A DNA stretch of 64,000 bases from Acidicapsa acidisoli (GTDB taxonomy: Bacteria; Acidobacteriota; Terriglobia; Terriglobales; Acidobacteriaceae): assembly GCF_025685625.1 (NCBI RefSeq), contig NZ_JAGSYI010000002.1, positions 1,302,001 through 1,366,000 of the forward strand, written 5' to 3'. The notes under the pieces were generated by a model. The model ran no database searches. It was not told the DNA's origin and saw nothing but the letters and a program-made list of their open reading frames with translations. Position numbers and translations under genes: made by a program. Below, one piece after another: positions 32,543-42,732 of the stretch (position 1 is the stretch's first letter; each line of letters starts with the position of its first letter).

Positions 32543-33540
32543 TCCGCTAGCGGCGCCAGGAACCGGTTCCGCGCAGACGACGAAATCGTGCGCAGATCCA
32601 ACAATGTCAGGAAGTCGATGGTCCCAAACTCCCGATCCCAGGCGGGCGCACTGCAGATGCGCGCCCCGATAGCAAGATAGGTCTTCAAAAGCTTCGGGAC
32701 CTTGGCTGGCTCGGACGCTGGCGTCAGATCTGATTCTTTCGCAGAACCAGACTCCGAATCTTCATGCTCGCCCGGGCAGATAAATCCCTCGGCGGGCAGC
32801 GTCTGCAACTCTGCTGCCGCGCGGTAGTTGGTCAACTGGCGATACATCTGCCAGCCCTCGCGCGGGTCCACCGAGTTCAAAGACGAGCATCCGATCAGAT
32901 AGCGCAACTGCATGTCCGTAGCATACTGCGCAATACCGCGCCACAGAAGCGTTAATACTTCCGGCGTCCGGTGTTCGCGATCAATCGACGCCCGCCCCAG
33001 TTCCAGAATCTCCCCGCGCATCGCCTCATACGGCGCAAACCCGAACTCCTGCTGCGAGTAATAGCCGAGATTCTGCTCCGCCGTAATGCCCGACTGCATG
33101 CGGTAGGTGCCGACGATCCTGCGGTCGACTTTGTCCTCGACCAGGAGATGTTCACAAAAAAGGTCAAACTGGTCCGTGTCCAGCCCAGTTTCATACGAGG
33201 CGTCGAGTCCCTTGCCCAGTTCGATATTGAAGACCTTGAAGCGCAACCGACATGCCGCGTCCCGATCCTCTATCGACTGCGCCAGACGCAGCCTGTACCG
33301 TCCCACCTCGGCATGAACACGAGGAAACGCGGGACAGGGCGGAGCGAGCAGTGGAACCGAGAATTCCGGCGCGGACGCGATACCAACTCCGGAAGTGGCA
33401 CCGGAGACGGAAACCTCCCACAGGGGCGAAGCAGAAGCCGCCAGCCCGGAAGGATCTTTCAACCCTGTCTGAGTGTTCACGGCAACAGTATGGCCCGGAT
33501 ATTGCGAAAGGATGGTGAACGCAGTGCGAACACAATGCAA
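32539..33540 (-). CDS. OlsB-like ornithine N-acyltransferase (GNAT-fold, hemolysin-like)
   Basis: The core (about residues 80-260) matches acyl-ACP-dependent N-acyltransferases that make lyso-ornithine lipid: RLRFKVFNIELG, FDLFCEHLLVED, RIVGTYRMQSG, EILELGRASIDREHR, YLIGCSSLNSVDP. The first 80 residues are low-complexity and the true start may be later (GTG 33480 is one choice); the TTG at 33540 is simply the longest. A C-terminal segment (KVPKLLKTYLAIGARICSAPAWD) is typical. It is translationally coupled to the OlsA-like gene. Ornithine lipids replace phospholipids during phosphate stress. Confidence 0.82.
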   Translation of the reverse strand: MHCVRTAFTILSQYPGHTVAVNTQTGLKDPSGLAASASPLWEVSVSGATSGVGIASAPEFSVPLLAPPCPAFPRVHAEVGRYRLRLAQSIEDRDAACRLRFKVFNIELGKGLDASYETGLDTDQFDLFCEHLLVEDKVDRRIVGTYRMQSGITAEQNLGYYSQQEFGFAPYEAMRGEILELGRASIDREHRTPEVLTLLWRGIAQYATDMQLRYLIGCSSLNSVDPREGWQMYRQLTNYRAAAELQTLPAEGFICPGEHEDSESGSAKESDLTPASEPAKVPKLLKTYLAIGARICSAPAWDREFGTIDFLTLLDLRTISSSARNRFLAPLAE

Positions 33541-33582
33541 ATTCTGACCAAAGATGTAAGCAGAAGCAACACAGCTCCAGCG

Positions 33583-34047
33583 CTATTCCATGCTTTTCCG
33601 ATAAACGATAAACCCGGAAAGGTCAGCCACCCGATCATAGAGTTTTCTGGCAGTGCTATTGGTTTCGTGAGTCAGCCAGTACACCCTCGTCGAACCGGCA
33701 AGTTTTGCCTGCCCATAGACCGCATGGATCAGTTTTTGACCAACTCCCTTGCCTCGCAGCGACGGGACAGTGAAAAGATCGTGCAGATAACACGTCGGAG
33801 CGATCGAAAGCGTGGTGCGATGAAAAAGATAATGAACAAGACCGACCAGCTTGTCTTCTTGTTCCGCCACAAGTGCATGAACCGGCTCATAGGCGTCGAA
33901 AAAACGCGCCCATGTCATCTGCGTGATTTCTTCCGGCAGAGCCGTCGAACCCGAGCGGCCATAAAACTCGTTATAGCCCTCCCAGAGAGCACGCCACTGA
34001 GAATAATCCGTGCGAAGAACGGCGCGGATCGTTACATCTTCTGCCAC
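33583..34047 (-). CDS. GNAT family N-acetyltransferase
   Basis: The GTG at 34047 is preferred because ggagag lies three bases upstream; a longer frame runs to TTG 34101. The 154-residue protein shows the GNAT fold: VTIRAVLRTDYSQW, GLVHYLFH, CYLHDLFTVPSLRGKGVGQKL (acetyl-CoA loop R-G-K-G-V-G) and YWLTHETNSTARKLYDRV. The acceptor is unknown. It lies in a minus-strand series between the sulfur-carrier gene and the OlsB-like gene, but the gaps do not show an operon. Confidence 0.88.
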   Translation of the reverse strand: MAEDVTIRAVLRTDYSQWRALWEGYNEFYGRSGSTALPEEITQMTWARFFDAYEPVHALVAEQEDKLVGLVHYLFHRTTLSIAPTCYLHDLFTVPSLRGKGVGQKLIHAVYGQAKLAGSTRVYWLTHETNSTARKLYDRVADLSGFIVYRKSME

Positions 34048-34154
34048 TTGCTCTCCAAAGATGACCAATTTAACCACGCAACGTTTCGGATTCAAACCCA
34101 AAGGAAAAGCCGAACCGCATTCAGCGATTCGGCCTCATCCCTCATCAATCCAAC

Positions 34155-34430
34155 TCAACCACCGGCGATCGAAGGAATCACCAGCACCTCATCCCCGTCC
34201 TGAAAGGCGTACTTCTCATTGCCCAGGAAGCGAATGTCTTCTTCATTCACATAGAAGTTAATGAACTTGCGCACCTGTCCGTCTTCGCCGCGCAAATGCT
34301 GGCGCAGCGCCGGAAAACGCCCTTCCAGATCCTTGACGAGTTCCGGCAGATTGGCAGCAGCCGTATCGATCTCCCGCACGTTGTTGGTGTGCTTCTGAAA
34401 TGCATTGGGCAACAAAACCTTAACCGACAT
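34155..34430 (-). CDS. MoaD/ThiS family sulfur-carrier protein (MetO-like candidate)
   Basis: The 91-residue protein has a ubiquitin-like fold outline (KVLLPNAFQKHTNNVREIDT, then FINFYVNEEDIRFL) and ends in SIAGG. Its C-terminal Gly-Gly is the site that is adenylated and turned into a thiocarboxylate in sulfur carriers. The start lies 11 bases inside the end of the upstream threonine-synthase-family gene, so the two are translated together. This pairing, behind a SAM riboswitch, points to sulfur donation for homocysteine rather than to molybdopterin or thiamine synthesis. Confidence 0.88.
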   Translation of the reverse strand: MSVKVLLPNAFQKHTNNVREIDTAAANLPELVKDLEGRFPALRQHLRGEDGQVRKFINFYVNEEDIRFLGNEKYAFQDGDEVLVIPSIAGG

Positions 34431-35691
34431 ACACCGCTCCCGCCAAGCCAGCCGCCCGGCCTTCCTGTTCTTCTAAATAGGCCGCAAAGTCCGACATGCG
34501 CGGACGAACCGCAGCATCCTGTGCATATGCTCCCTGCAATACATCGGTCGTCTTCAGCCCGTTGCCGGTGATGCAGCTCACTGTCAGCTCATCGGGCTTG
34601 ATGCGCCCATGCGCATAGAGCCGCGCTGTGACCGCCGTCGTCACGCCGCCTGCAGTCTCCGTAAACACGCCCTCGGTCTCGGCCAGTTCCTGGATCGCCG
34701 AGACAATCTCCACATCCGAAACATCCTCGGCCCAGCCGCCAGAATCCCGAATCACGCGAATCGCATATGGCCCATCCGCCGGGTTGCCGATCGCCAGCGA
34801 GCGAGCAATCGTATTCGGCCTCTGCGGCTCGATGTTGTCTGCGCCGCCTTTTACCGCCGTCGAAATCGGCGAGCATCCGGTCGCCTGAGCGCCGAAGAAC
34901 TTCACCGGCTTGTCTTCGACCAGCCCAAGAGTGACGAGTTCCTTGAAAGCCTTGCGAATCTTGGTAATCAGCGACCCGCCCGCCATGGGAACAACGACGT
35001 TATCCGGCAACCGCCAGCCAAGCTGCTCGGCAATCTCGAACCCAACCGACTTCGAGCCCTCGGCGTAATACGGTCGCAGATTCACGTTGACAAAGCCCCA
35101 GTTGTACTTCTCCGCGATCTGCGAACAGAGCCGGTTGCAATGGTCATAATTGCCATCAATCCGGATTAAAGTAGCGCCATAGACCTGGGTATTCAAGATC
35201 TTCGCCGGTTCCAGATCGGAAGGCACGAGGATGTACGTCTTCAACCCCAACCGCGCCGCGCCGGCAGCGACCGCGTTGGCCAGGTTGCCCGTCGAAGAGC
35301 AGCCGACCGTATCGAATCCAAAGGCCTGCGCATTGGCCAGCGCCACGGCCACCACGCGATCCTTGAAGCTCAGGGTCGGCAGGCAGACAGCGTCATTCTT
35401 GATGTAGAGATTCGTTGCCCCGATCCGCTTCGCGAGCCTTGGAGCGGCCATCAGCGGAGTCATGCCCGCAGGCGTGGTTGGAATATAAGTATCAGAAACC
35501 GGCAGCAGCGCCCGATAGCGCCACATATTCAACGGACCGGCGGCAATCGCATCGCGCGTGAACCGGCTGCGCGCGTAATCCAGGTCAAAATCGACTTCCA
35601 GTGGAGAAAAACACTCATCGCAGATAGAGAGCGGCTGATTCCCGTAGCTCTTGCCGCACTCCCGACATCGCAGTTCGTAGGCCGTAGTCAA
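34420..35691 (-). CDS. thrC: Threonine synthase family PLP enzyme (possible MetM-type homocysteine synthase)
   Basis: The 423-residue enzyme starts at TTG 35691 after gaggga. An N-terminal zinc ribbon has Cys9-x2-Cys12 and Cys24-x2-Cys27. The PLP-binding Lys110 is in TLSFKDR, and the phosphate-binding loop is SSTGNLANAV. By family it converts O-phosphohomoserine to threonine. However, it overlaps a sulfur-carrier gene and has a SAM-I riboswitch in its leader, which regulates by methionine status. A MetM-type enzyme, which makes homocysteine from O-phosphohomoserine and a thiocarboxylated carrier, has been described from Streptomyces and is a threonine synthase homologue. I infer the same here; classic threonine synthase is still possible. 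Confidence 0.85.
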   Translation of the reverse strand: MTTAYELRCRECGKSYGNQPLSICDECFSPLEVDFDLDYARSRFTRDAIAAGPLNMWRYRALLPVSDTYIPTTPAGMTPLMAAPRLAKRIGATNLYIKNDAVCLPTLSFKDRVVAVALANAQAFGFDTVGCSSTGNLANAVAAGAARLGLKTYILVPSDLEPAKILNTQVYGATLIRIDGNYDHCNRLCSQIAEKYNWGFVNVNLRPYYAEGSKSVGFEIAEQLGWRLPDNVVVPMAGGSLITKIRKAFKELVTLGLVEDKPVKFFGAQATGCSPISTAVKGGADNIEPQRPNTIARSLAIGNPADGPYAIRVIRDSGGWAEDVSDVEIVSAIQELAETEGVFTETAGGVTTAVTARLYAHGRIKPDELTVSCITGNGLKTTDVLQGAYAQDAAVRPRMSDFAAYLEEQEGRAAGLAGAVYVG

Positions 35692-35842
35692 AGTTCCCTC
35701 GCGTATGCGAGAGCGGTTGGAAACGAGTACAGCGACTCTTCCACGACTAACGGCGACGTTTCACGGCTCTTGGCCTGAGCGAACCTGAGAGGGTGCAGTT
35801 GCGAAAATGCCTTTGACCCGAAGGCCAGTCCATTTTCCGAAT

Positions 35843-35947
35843 CTCATGTCCCCCGTTACCGGGCGAGAGTTGACACCGTGATCCAGAATTGCTCCGGCCG
35901 GTTGTCGTGGCGTCGCAGGGCTCGTCCCTCAACCACTCTTCATGAAA
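35843..35947 (-). promoter_or_regulatory. SAM-I (S-box) riboswitch
   Basis: On the minus strand, atttcatg and catgagat can form P1, enclosing the S-box core: aagagtggttgagggacgag, then ccctgcgacgccacgacaac and cggtgtcaactctcgcccgg. These follow the SAM-I consensus (GAGGGA, GCCC, GRNGCC, GGCAACC-like, GGTGCCAA-like) in the right order and spacing. The aptamer begins some 35 bases after a promoter and ends about 150 bases before the threonine-synthase-family gene. SAM binding should turn expression off. Confidence 0.9.
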
Positions 35948-35989
35948 TCCAGGTTCATTCCCGATAGGAACGAACCAGAATATGTATAT

Positions 35990-36018
35990 GGTATAGCAGA
36001 GCTTGCGCCGCAACGCAA
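35990..36018 (-). promoter_or_regulatory. Sigma-70-type promoter of the riboswitch-thrC-moaD transcript
   Basis: On the minus strand a -35 element ttgcgt (36013-36018) and a -10 element tatacc (35990-35995) are separated by 17 bp. Transcription should start near 35983, giving a leader that contains the SAM-I aptamer. Confidence 0.55.
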
Positions 36019-36084
36019 CTCGCCTTGCAGCGAATGGTGCCCACAGCTTCTTCAACTGCCTGAATCAGGAATCAAAACTGCAGA

Positions 36085-37269
36085 TCAGTTCGTGTAGAAC
36101 CGCACATAATCCACCAGCAGCGAAGCAGGAAAAGTAGTCGAAGCATTTGGATTTTTCGGCCAGTCTCCACCCACGGCCAGATTCACAAGCAGGAAGGCGC
36201 TATCGCCCGAATCAAACGGCCAAACTGCCCCGCTCAAGCGACTCAAACTCGCTGGATTCGTGTAGGTCACATACGGGCTGGCCGGATCATCGATGTAATA
36301 CGCCACTGAACCGGGCTTCCAGATCATGCCGTATGTGTGCCAGCCCGCCGCCGTCTGTCCCGCCGGAAAGTGATACAACGTGCCAAGTCCCACATCCCCG
36401 GTAAAGCCTGTCCCGTGCACGGAGCCCTCGTTCCAATCCGGCGTCAACGCAGCGTTGACCCGCTCCATGATGTCCATCTCGCCGCAGGCAGGCCAGTCCA
36501 CCGTGGCGATGTTATTGCCAAGCGTCCAGAACGCCGGCCAGTATCCCTGCCCCTCGGGGACCCAGATCTTCGCTTCCAGCCGCCCATACTGCAGGCTGAA
36601 CAATCCCTGCGTCTTCATCCGCGCCGAAGTGAAAACACCCGGCGCAGGCTGCCGCGCCACAACATGCAGATATCCGTCCGTGCCCACGTACGCGTTCGGA
36701 TTCGCCGGATCACAGGGCGCAGCGGTCGAGCCCCATGCACAGTAGTTCTCCAACTCGTGGTTGCCGAATCCGCTGTTCCCTGTGTCATACGTCCAGACCG
36801 CCGGGTCCGGCTGCTGATTCGAGCCCGTTGCATTCGTGAACTCATCGCTCCACACCAGTGTTCCCGAAGCAATGTCAGGCGCAAAAACCTTCGTCGCGAC
36901 CGCGCTGGGCTTGTCTCCCGTAAGCGTCGCATAGGCGTTGAGCGTCAGATTCGAAGCCACCAGAAACGGAGCCTCGTATACCGTAGAAGACGGAGTTGGC
37001 GCGCCGCCATCCACCGTGTAATGGATCGTCGCACCCGGCGTAGTACTGGCCAGGGAAACGATCTGCGCGCCCGCCTGCGCGGCCTTCGTCGTAATCGCCG
37101 GAGTCGCTACCTGAGCCTGCGCCGGAGTTACCGGCCCGGTCGAGTTCGAACCATCCAAACCACCCGATCCGCTTCCGCCTGCCCAAATCAATGCAGTCAG
37201 GAAAAGAGAAAGTCCACCCAAAAATCCGCCCAAGAGACCACCCGATCGTTCGCCCGTACCCATGCACAA
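36085..37269 (-). CDS. Glycoside hydrolase family 16 beta-glucanase with chitobiase-C-like domain
   Basis: The 394-residue protein has a membrane-active N-terminus (GLLGGFLGGLSLFLTALIW) serving as signal peptide or anchor, then a beta domain like the chitobiase/hexosaminidase C-terminal module (about residues 55-130: PGATIHYTVDGGAPTPSSTV). The GH16 jelly roll follows (about 135-394). Its catalytic motif is GEMDIMERV, with both glutamates flanking Asp. WSDEF and WPAFWTLG are also typical. Likely substrates are beta-1,3 or mixed-linkage glucans (laminarinase-type). It stands alone. Confidence 0.92.
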   Translation of the reverse strand: MCMGTGERSGGLLGGFLGGLSLFLTALIWAGGSGSGGLDGSNSTGPVTPAQAQVATPAITTKAAQAGAQIVSLASTTPGATIHYTVDGGAPTPSSTVYEAPFLVASNLTLNAYATLTGDKPSAVATKVFAPDIASGTLVWSDEFTNATGSNQQPDPAVWTYDTGNSGFGNHELENYCAWGSTAAPCDPANPNAYVGTDGYLHVVARQPAPGVFTSARMKTQGLFSLQYGRLEAKIWVPEGQGYWPAFWTLGNNIATVDWPACGEMDIMERVNAALTPDWNEGSVHGTGFTGDVGLGTLYHFPAGQTAAGWHTYGMIWKPGSVAYYIDDPASPYVTYTNPASLSRLSGAVWPFDSGDSAFLLVNLAVGGDWPKNPNASTTFPASLLVDYVRFYTN

Positions 37270-38908: not shown

Positions 38909-41616
<2,708 letters not shown>

Positions 41617-41620
<4 letters not shown>

Positions 41621-42732
41621 GCGGCAACCTCATTCCGGCTCAACTGCCGCGGAGGCTGGCCCTCAAGCGCCCTGGCGATAGCCGCGATATGCTCAGGCGT
41701 GTTGCCGCAGCAGCCGCCGGCGATATTGATCAGCCCTCCCCGCGCAAACTCTCCGAGATAACGAGCCATGTCCTTCGGCCCAAGATCGAACCCAGTCTCC
41801 GATAGCGGATTCGGCAGACCGGCATTCGGGTAGCACGAAATCGCCACATCCGCCTTCTCCGAAAGCTCCTCCAGAAACGGATACATCAGATCCGGCCCAA
41901 GCGAGCAGTTGAGTCCCACCGAGAGCGGCTTCACATGCTGCACCGCGTTCCAGAAGGCCTCCGTGGTCTGCGCCGAGATCAGCGTCTCGCCGCCGCGCCC
42001 CACCGCCGCCGAAATCATCACCGGCAGATCCCTGCCGTTCGCCGCGTGACCATCCTCATCGAACACCTCGCGGATAGCCACAAGCGCCGCCTTGGCATTC
42101 AGCGAGTCGAAGATCGTCTCCACCAGCAGCAGGTCGACGCCACCGGCAATAAGCGCCCGCACCTGCTGAGCGTAGGCAGTCTTCACCTGATCGAAGGTCA
42201 CCACCCGGAAGCCTGCATCTTCAGCATCCGGCGAATTCGAGAGGGACACAGTCATTGGCCCAATCGCCCCAGCCACGAACCGTTGCACCCCGGTCGCGCT
42301 CCCGACACGATCCGCCCACTCCCGGCACTGCCGCGCCGACTGCTCATTGATCTCCCAGGCCAGATCGTCGAGAAACCGATCCTCGATGATCTTCTGGTAG
42401 AACGCAGGGTCTTTCCGGCCGCCATGCTCGCGCGGATCGTCCACAAAGAATTCGCTCTGGGTAATGCTTGTCGCGCCAAAGGTATTCGTCTCGATAATGT
42501 CCGCCCCAGCCTCCAGAAACCGGCGATGGATGTCGCAGATCATCGCCGGCTGCGTCAGCGAGAATAGGTCGCCGTTGTTCTTGAGATCCTTGGTCGAGTC
42601 CTTGAAACGCTCTCCCCGGATATCCGATTCCGTCATGCCATAGGTGCGGATCGTCGTGCCCATCGCACCATCAATGATGGCGATACGGCTCTCCATGATT
42701 TTCTGAAGCGGATGTTTATGCACTGTTTTCAT
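41617..42732 (-). CDS. metH: Methionine synthase, homocysteine-binding part (split MetH)
   Basis: The start at ATG 42732 follows aggaaga and gives a 371-residue homocysteine S-methyltransferase barrel. Features are [17 protein letters not shown] near the N-terminus, [13 protein letters not shown], and the zinc-binding cysteines of GLNCS and GGCCGN. The chain stops where single-chain MetH would enter its linker to the folate domain, and the next gene begins with that domain. The product methylates homocysteine using methyl-cobalamin carried by the partner. No SAM or B12 riboswitch was recognised in its leader. Confidence 0.93.

Follow-up and report, generated by a model that had tools for sequence, protein, structure and literature searches.

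A SAM-I riboswitch precedes a threonine-synthase-family gene that overlaps a sulfur-carrier gene in Acidicapsa acidisoli: a probable MetM/MetO route to homocysteine

The unit described here was found in a stretch of 64,000 nucleotides from the genome of Acidicapsa acidisoli (hereafter the window) and all of its parts are located on the reverse strand. It consists of a SAM-I (S-box) riboswitch aptamer (35841..35948), a leader from the aptamer to the start codon (35692..35840), which by its position is the presumed expression platform, a metM-like gene (34420..35691) and a metO-like gene (34155..34430). The metM-like open reading frame begins with TTG and encodes a PLP-dependent protein of the threonine-synthase family (423 aa, PALP domain), which on the basis of its domain, its TIGR00260 match, the tree and the predicted model is proposed to be a homocysteine synthase acting on O-phosphohomoserine. 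The match to TIGR00260 reaches 288.8 bits, above the curated cut-off of 167.1, and the predicted model (mean pLDDT 86.6) has threonine synthases as its best fold matches; solved threonine synthases among the relatives are 2zsj, 6cgq, 1uim and 2d1f. An earlier reading made from the letters alone (hereafter the sequence-only reading) had named Lys110 as the PLP lysine and had seen an N-terminal zinc ribbon. Both were borne out, Lys110 lying within SFKDR, which aligns with the same motif of the solved threonine synthases, and Cys9, Cys12, Cys24 and Cys27 of the ribbon being invariant in 14 sequences, the window included.

The metO-like gene encodes a sulfur-carrier protein of the ThiS/MoaD/CysO type with 91 aa (ThiS PF02597, E 2.3e-11). 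Its C-terminus, SIAGG, ends at Gly-Gly and its best solved-structure match is 3dwg_C (E 2.8e-15, listed as cfp10A), which we take to be CysO of M. tuberculosis. The GG-ended, MoaD/ThiS-like gene and its overlap of 11 bp with the metM-like gene (34420-34430) are as the sequence-only reading had described them; its wording that the genes are fused by overlap holds for the overlap and not for a fusion, as these are two separate open reading frames.

The S-box aptamer proposed earlier was confirmed by the Rfam covariance model, RF00162 matching 35841-35948 over its full length (model positions 1-108 of 108) with 70.8 bits and E 1.5e-14, against a gathering threshold of 44.4. The whole-genome search gave this match, before the metM-like gene, as the only one in 7.11 Mb. 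A common structure was obtained from 14 sequences (the window and 13 relatives), in which the family shows little covariation (both sides changed in 2 of 31 pairs), so the riboswitch claim is carried by the Rfam score. An inverted repeat (35952-35976) was seen by eye immediately upstream of the aptamer. The promoter which had been counted as part of the unit was not confirmed, since a sigma-70 scan of 33400-36200, covering one promoter type, gave no consensus site upstream of the aptamer and only a single site in all, on the forward strand, with an average of 1.0 in shuffled sequences.

The leader was analyzed for a mode of switching. The scan listed no terminator-like site between the aptamer and the metM-like gene, and the alignment of 14 leaders gave no consensus structure beyond the aptamer. 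The predicted folds contain a hairpin (35696..35713, 4 bases before the TTG start) whose 3′ arm includes a Shine-Dalgarno-like GAGGG and which may act as a translational switch. By eye, such a hairpin is found at a like place in 11 of the 14 leaders, window included, with differing arm sequences. Its mean pairing in the window is only slightly above that of mononucleotide shuffles (0.63 versus 0.53), and the pairing is below shuffles in L060 and L063, where the start was taken further downstream, and in L069; as evidence of switching the hairpin is weak. With no terminator listed and the hairpin recurring in 11 of the 14 leaders, translational control appears to be the likelier mode.

Counterparts of the unit were found in actinobacteria. 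A tblastn search of plasmid records gave a protein of Nonomuraea which is 53.8% identical to the MetM-like protein of the window and is encoded in the order SAM-I, metM, metO, the gene being immediately preceded by an aptamer of 68.7 bits and immediately followed by a GG-ended carrier. The best 80 loci of a genome scan for relatives were all actinobacterial, many of them from Streptomyces. In the 18 of these that were scanned for SAM-I the aptamer always ends 22-121 bases before the matched start, which with Nonomuraea brings the scanned actinobacterial loci that have SAM-I immediately upstream to 19 of 19. A carrier-like open reading frame with IPAVAGG lies behind the gene in 80 of 81 loci (the best 80 and Nonomuraea); 64 of these carriers stop at IPAVAGG, 13 close with GGC, and the remaining three carry one or two other residues at the end. 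At L099 the search for the IPAVAGG motif behind the gene gave an unrelated match only.

MetM was identified as a homocysteine synthase in Streptomyces by Hasebe et al. 2024 (10.1128/aem.01247-24) and has homologues among cyanobacteria, according to the passages on it in PMC12172450. The same passages place a SAM riboswitch upstream of metM in S. albulus and liken its metO to a putative sulfur-carrier gene of Microcystis (PMC12172450). As far as these passages describe S. albulus MetM/MetO, the window shares with it the threonine-synthase-family enzyme, the adjacent sulfur-carrier gene and the upstream SAM riboswitch; it differs in belonging to another bacterial group, in the conventional metX/metY route that coexists in its genome, and in its relatives, where MetO is tailed or a ThiF-desulfurase pair is added. 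A SAM riboswitch ahead of metM has been known from Streptomyces albulus since 2024, and the unit is very probably a further example; the ThiF-desulfurase operon, the tailed MetO and the linked sister clade are possibly new.

The tree was built from 69 rows, of which 59 represent the wider group and 10 are other threonine synthases, the window genome contributing two; S. albulus is not among the rows. The ten outgroup threonine synthases part from the wider group at 100/100. In this tree, a check that the sequence-only reading had proposed, the window is grouped with actinobacterial MetM-type proteins, in a clade B of 44 rows of which 15 are actinobacterial (15 of the 81 loci were used), with moderate support of only 93/74. 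A constrained tree uniting the family of the window and sister clade A was not rejected (p-AU 0.071).

All distribution searches were run on one set of 199 genomes from the phylum, 20 of them in the window's family, with cut-offs of 1e-80 for the metM-like gene and metY, 1e-60 for metX, 1e-70 for threonine synthases of the L008 type and 1e-3 for metA, SAM-I and JAMM. The window genome holds two other threonine synthases, L006 and L008, which supplies the second, canonical thrC that the sequence-only reading had proposed to look for, and the L008 type is present in all 20 family genomes; the metM-like gene is neither the only threonine-synthase homologue of its genome nor clustered with the others in the tree. 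The RF00162 search found no SAM-I beside L006 or L008. Of the 20 family genomes 16 hold a metM-like gene (partial in G112). At the cut-offs used, metX, metY and metA had no match in 15 of these 16, and the four genomes which lack metM all have metX and metY. Only the window genome (1 of 20) combines metM with metX/metY, and it is also the only family genome with metA. The suggestion to look for metX and metY elsewhere had therefore a divided outcome: they are present in the window genome, where metX-metY and metY-metA mean that MetM is not the only homocysteine route, and they were not found in the other 15 family genomes with metM. The second metY of the window genome (L013) adjoins a metA/HTS gene (G000:C5:27456-28382); where it came from was not revealed when plasmid records were searched with it.

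Counts were made on a narrow set of 30 clade-B genomes (29 rows of the tree plus G112 with its partial gene) and on a wide set of 45; the Fisher values computed for them take no account of relatedness. In the narrow set, and with relatedness left uncorrected, metX, metY or metA occurs in 1 of 30 genomes versus 80 of the 169 others; in the wide set 5 of 45 have one of them (G000, G077, G125, G175 and G188). SAM-I precedes metM in each of the 15 family genomes in which it was found, the other five of the 20 giving no match at 1e-3. Across the phylum sample it is upstream of the metM-like gene and on the same strand in all 28 genomes holding both, at less than 600 bp in 24 and about 2.4 kb upstream in four. 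Other copies of SAM-I precede metY in 15 cases (ten with metA behind) and metA in one, and 57 of the 101 copies in the sample stand before none of the genes that were searched. Within the stretch read, 6 of 29 clade-B loci have no adjoining metO.

Sister clade A comprises 15 rows. Five have SAM-I directly upstream (G188, G140, G050, G024 and G088; loci L188, L190, L191, L192 and L200), and in G188 a carrier gene, whose frame extends past Gly-Gly, lies behind the metM-like gene. In nine of the ten rows without SAM-I, hom and/or a GHMP kinase (thrB) is directly upstream, mostly as judged by eye; a GHMP kinase near the gene was confirmed by Pfam in G183 and G054, and in G125 an aspartate-kinase-like open reading frame was seen by eye behind the gene. 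A threonine synthase of the L008 type immediately follows the metM-like gene in G014 and G175. Siroheme-synthase genes are close to it in G028, and nitrite/sulfite reductase genes are upstream of it in G088 and G116. The hom/thrB neighbours had given a first reading of clade A as true threonine synthases, which was weakened by the separate L008-type enzyme and the sulfate-reduction genes alongside. For a second O-phosphohomoserine enzyme standing beside ThrC and such genes, homocysteine would fit better than threonine, and clade A may form another homocysteine-synthase branch. In one locus without SAM-I (G183, L199) an L008-type ThrC, a GHMP kinase, the metM-like gene, a PAPS reductase and a siroheme synthase were seen in a row. 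A residue signature of 40 columns was also compiled, in which the window has 18 residues like actinobacterial MetM, 8 like the ten clade-A rows without SAM-I and 14 like neither, some clade-B rows being even or lower in MetM-like against clade-A-like columns; since clade A may itself consist of homocysteine synthases, this signature is no test of MetM against ThrC.

The carrier tails vary among the relatives. Wherever metO adjoins metM in a family relative (13 of 13, L057-L069), the frame continues past Gly-Gly, in 11 of them by two residues of varied sequence and in the remaining two by 20 and 28 residues; beside the metM of G023 no metO was seen. Provided that the chemistry follows that of other carriers, such a tail must come off before C-terminal activation. 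Every one of the 20 family genomes has a JAMM gene (PF14464, E 1.6e-21 or better), whether it holds metM or not, and none was matched at 1e-3 in the four genomes of the family f18, whose MetO ends at Gly-Gly. The JAMM protease had been considered as a diagnostic partner of the tailed MetO, which was ruled out because the gene also occurs in family genomes without metM.

Genes for sulfur relay were seen near several of these loci. In G128, of family f18, SAM-I is followed by a ThiF-family E1 gene (E 9.4e-74), a class-V aminotransferase gene (E 1.4e-82), metM and metO, the aminotransferase being a cysteine desulfurase by our reading of its sequence. G153 was read with the same order, G019 has matching genes in place (tblastn), and for G169, in which a metO is present, the two upstream genes are presumed from an identical spacing. 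The series ThiF, class-V aminotransferase of the desulfurase type, metM and metO is headed by SAM-I in L201, L202 and L222. In G110 the riboswitch has an E1 gene shortly upstream of it, and in G009 the 5 kb after metM-metO contain a ThiS-ThiF-rhodanese fusion and a JAMM gene. The window genome has a ThiF-rhodanese gene adjoining a JAMM gene; between the two no carrier open reading frame was seen there, and one is present at that place in the relative G139. In the window itself, metH is split in two genes (38909-42732) which overlap at TTGA. One lacks the homocysteine-binding domain (38909..41620, reverse strand; PRK09490 1503.9 bits over profile positions 339-1233), and the other codes for the missing N-terminal part, a homocysteine S-methyltransferase domain (41617..42732, reverse strand; PF02574 E 1.3e-78). 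Within the stretches fetched around metM, metH is near it in 3 of 8 relatives.

Taken together, the unit is very probably a SAM-controlled metM-metO pair serving homocysteine synthesis, with the reaction judged from sequence and context. The MetM/MetO route put forward in the sequence-only reading is supported by the actinobacterial gene order, the tree, the separate ThrC and the distribution. When SAM is low, the SAM-I leader would leave the metM start open, probably at the level of translation. The C-terminal Gly-Gly of MetO would be thiocarboxylated by an E1-like adenylyltransferase and a sulfurtransferase, a role that in the window genome falls probably to the ThiF-rhodanese protein of L233. 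MetM would then take O-phosphohomoserine from the threonine branch, eliminate phosphate and add the sulfur of the MetO thiocarboxylate instead of water, giving homocysteine; the MetM of Streptomyces reportedly likewise uses thiocarboxylated MetO. MetH, encoded 3 kb away, would turn homocysteine into methionine.

Parts of this scheme are known from other systems. CysM/CysO/Mec of Mycobacterium tuberculosis also has a PLP enzyme using carrier-thiocarboxylate sulfur, as proposed here, and a JAMM partner; unlike the window enzyme, its enzyme belongs to the CysK/CysM family and makes cysteine, and we know of no SAM-I for it. In Wolinella succinogenes, HcyS/HcyD/HcyF with MetY carry out carrier-dependent homocysteine synthesis, and a C-terminal extension of the carrier, as found in the window's relatives, is removed by a JAMM protease; that system uses a MetY-type enzyme and O-acetylhomoserine instead of a threonine-synthase-type enzyme, and the enzyme beside the window carrier is PALP, not Cys_Met_Meta_PP. 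With canonical ThrC the window enzyme shares fold, PLP lysine motif and probably substrate, and it differs in its separation from those enzymes in the tree and in having SAM-I beside it.

Three other explanations were weighed. The protein could be an ordinary or dual threonine synthase under SAM control, the carrier serving another pathway, as its best labels and folds would suggest, together with the many sister-clade relatives adjoining hom or thrB and the Microcystis homologue, which the passages in PMC12172450 report to act as a threonine synthase. We consider this unlikely in view of the separate ThrC throughout the family and the two others in the window genome, the L008-type ThrC beside the metM-like gene in G014, G175 and G183, the SAM control, the overlapping carrier gene and a distribution complementary to metX/metY in the family. 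That the unit is a redundant relic in the window genome, given its two other homocysteine routes and the TTG start, is very unlikely: the reading frames are open, the aptamer is full length, the catalytic motif is kept, and the closest sampled relative is still 83-84% identical.

It is highly improbable, finally, that the pair is a carrier-dependent cysteine synthase like CysM/CysO, acting on O-phosphoserine or O-acetylserine. Profile models and solved relatives point to threonine synthases and not to CysM, two CysK-like proteins were recognized by eye from their sequences in the genome (L004, L005), and SAM-I control fits methionine; the presumed CysO as best carrier match and the JAMM and ThiF partners in the genome would agree with such an enzyme.

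With the homocysteine route preferred, a wider picture can be drawn, for which we see an even chance. The O-phosphohomoserine route would be a full alternative to O-acylhomoserine sulfhydrylation in this phylum, the two exchanging within one family. One sister family would have a self-contained SAM-controlled operon of E1, cysteine desulfurase, MetM and MetO; in most relatives MetO would be made as a short-tailed precursor and loaded with sulfur only after the tail has been cut off, the cutting enzyme probably being a JAMM protease. The sister clade, whose genes adjoin sulfate-reduction genes, thrB or a separate ThrC, would form a second, carrier-poor branch of homocysteine synthases. Automatic annotation would call the gene thrC, its score being above the curated cut-off, so that the methionine route goes unseen and such genomes appear to lack homocysteine synthesis. 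Because metM and metX/metY replace each other almost cleanly within one family, the pathway can be tested genetically, and a single clone of the ThiF-desulfurase-metM-metO operon would carry the complete sulfur relay.
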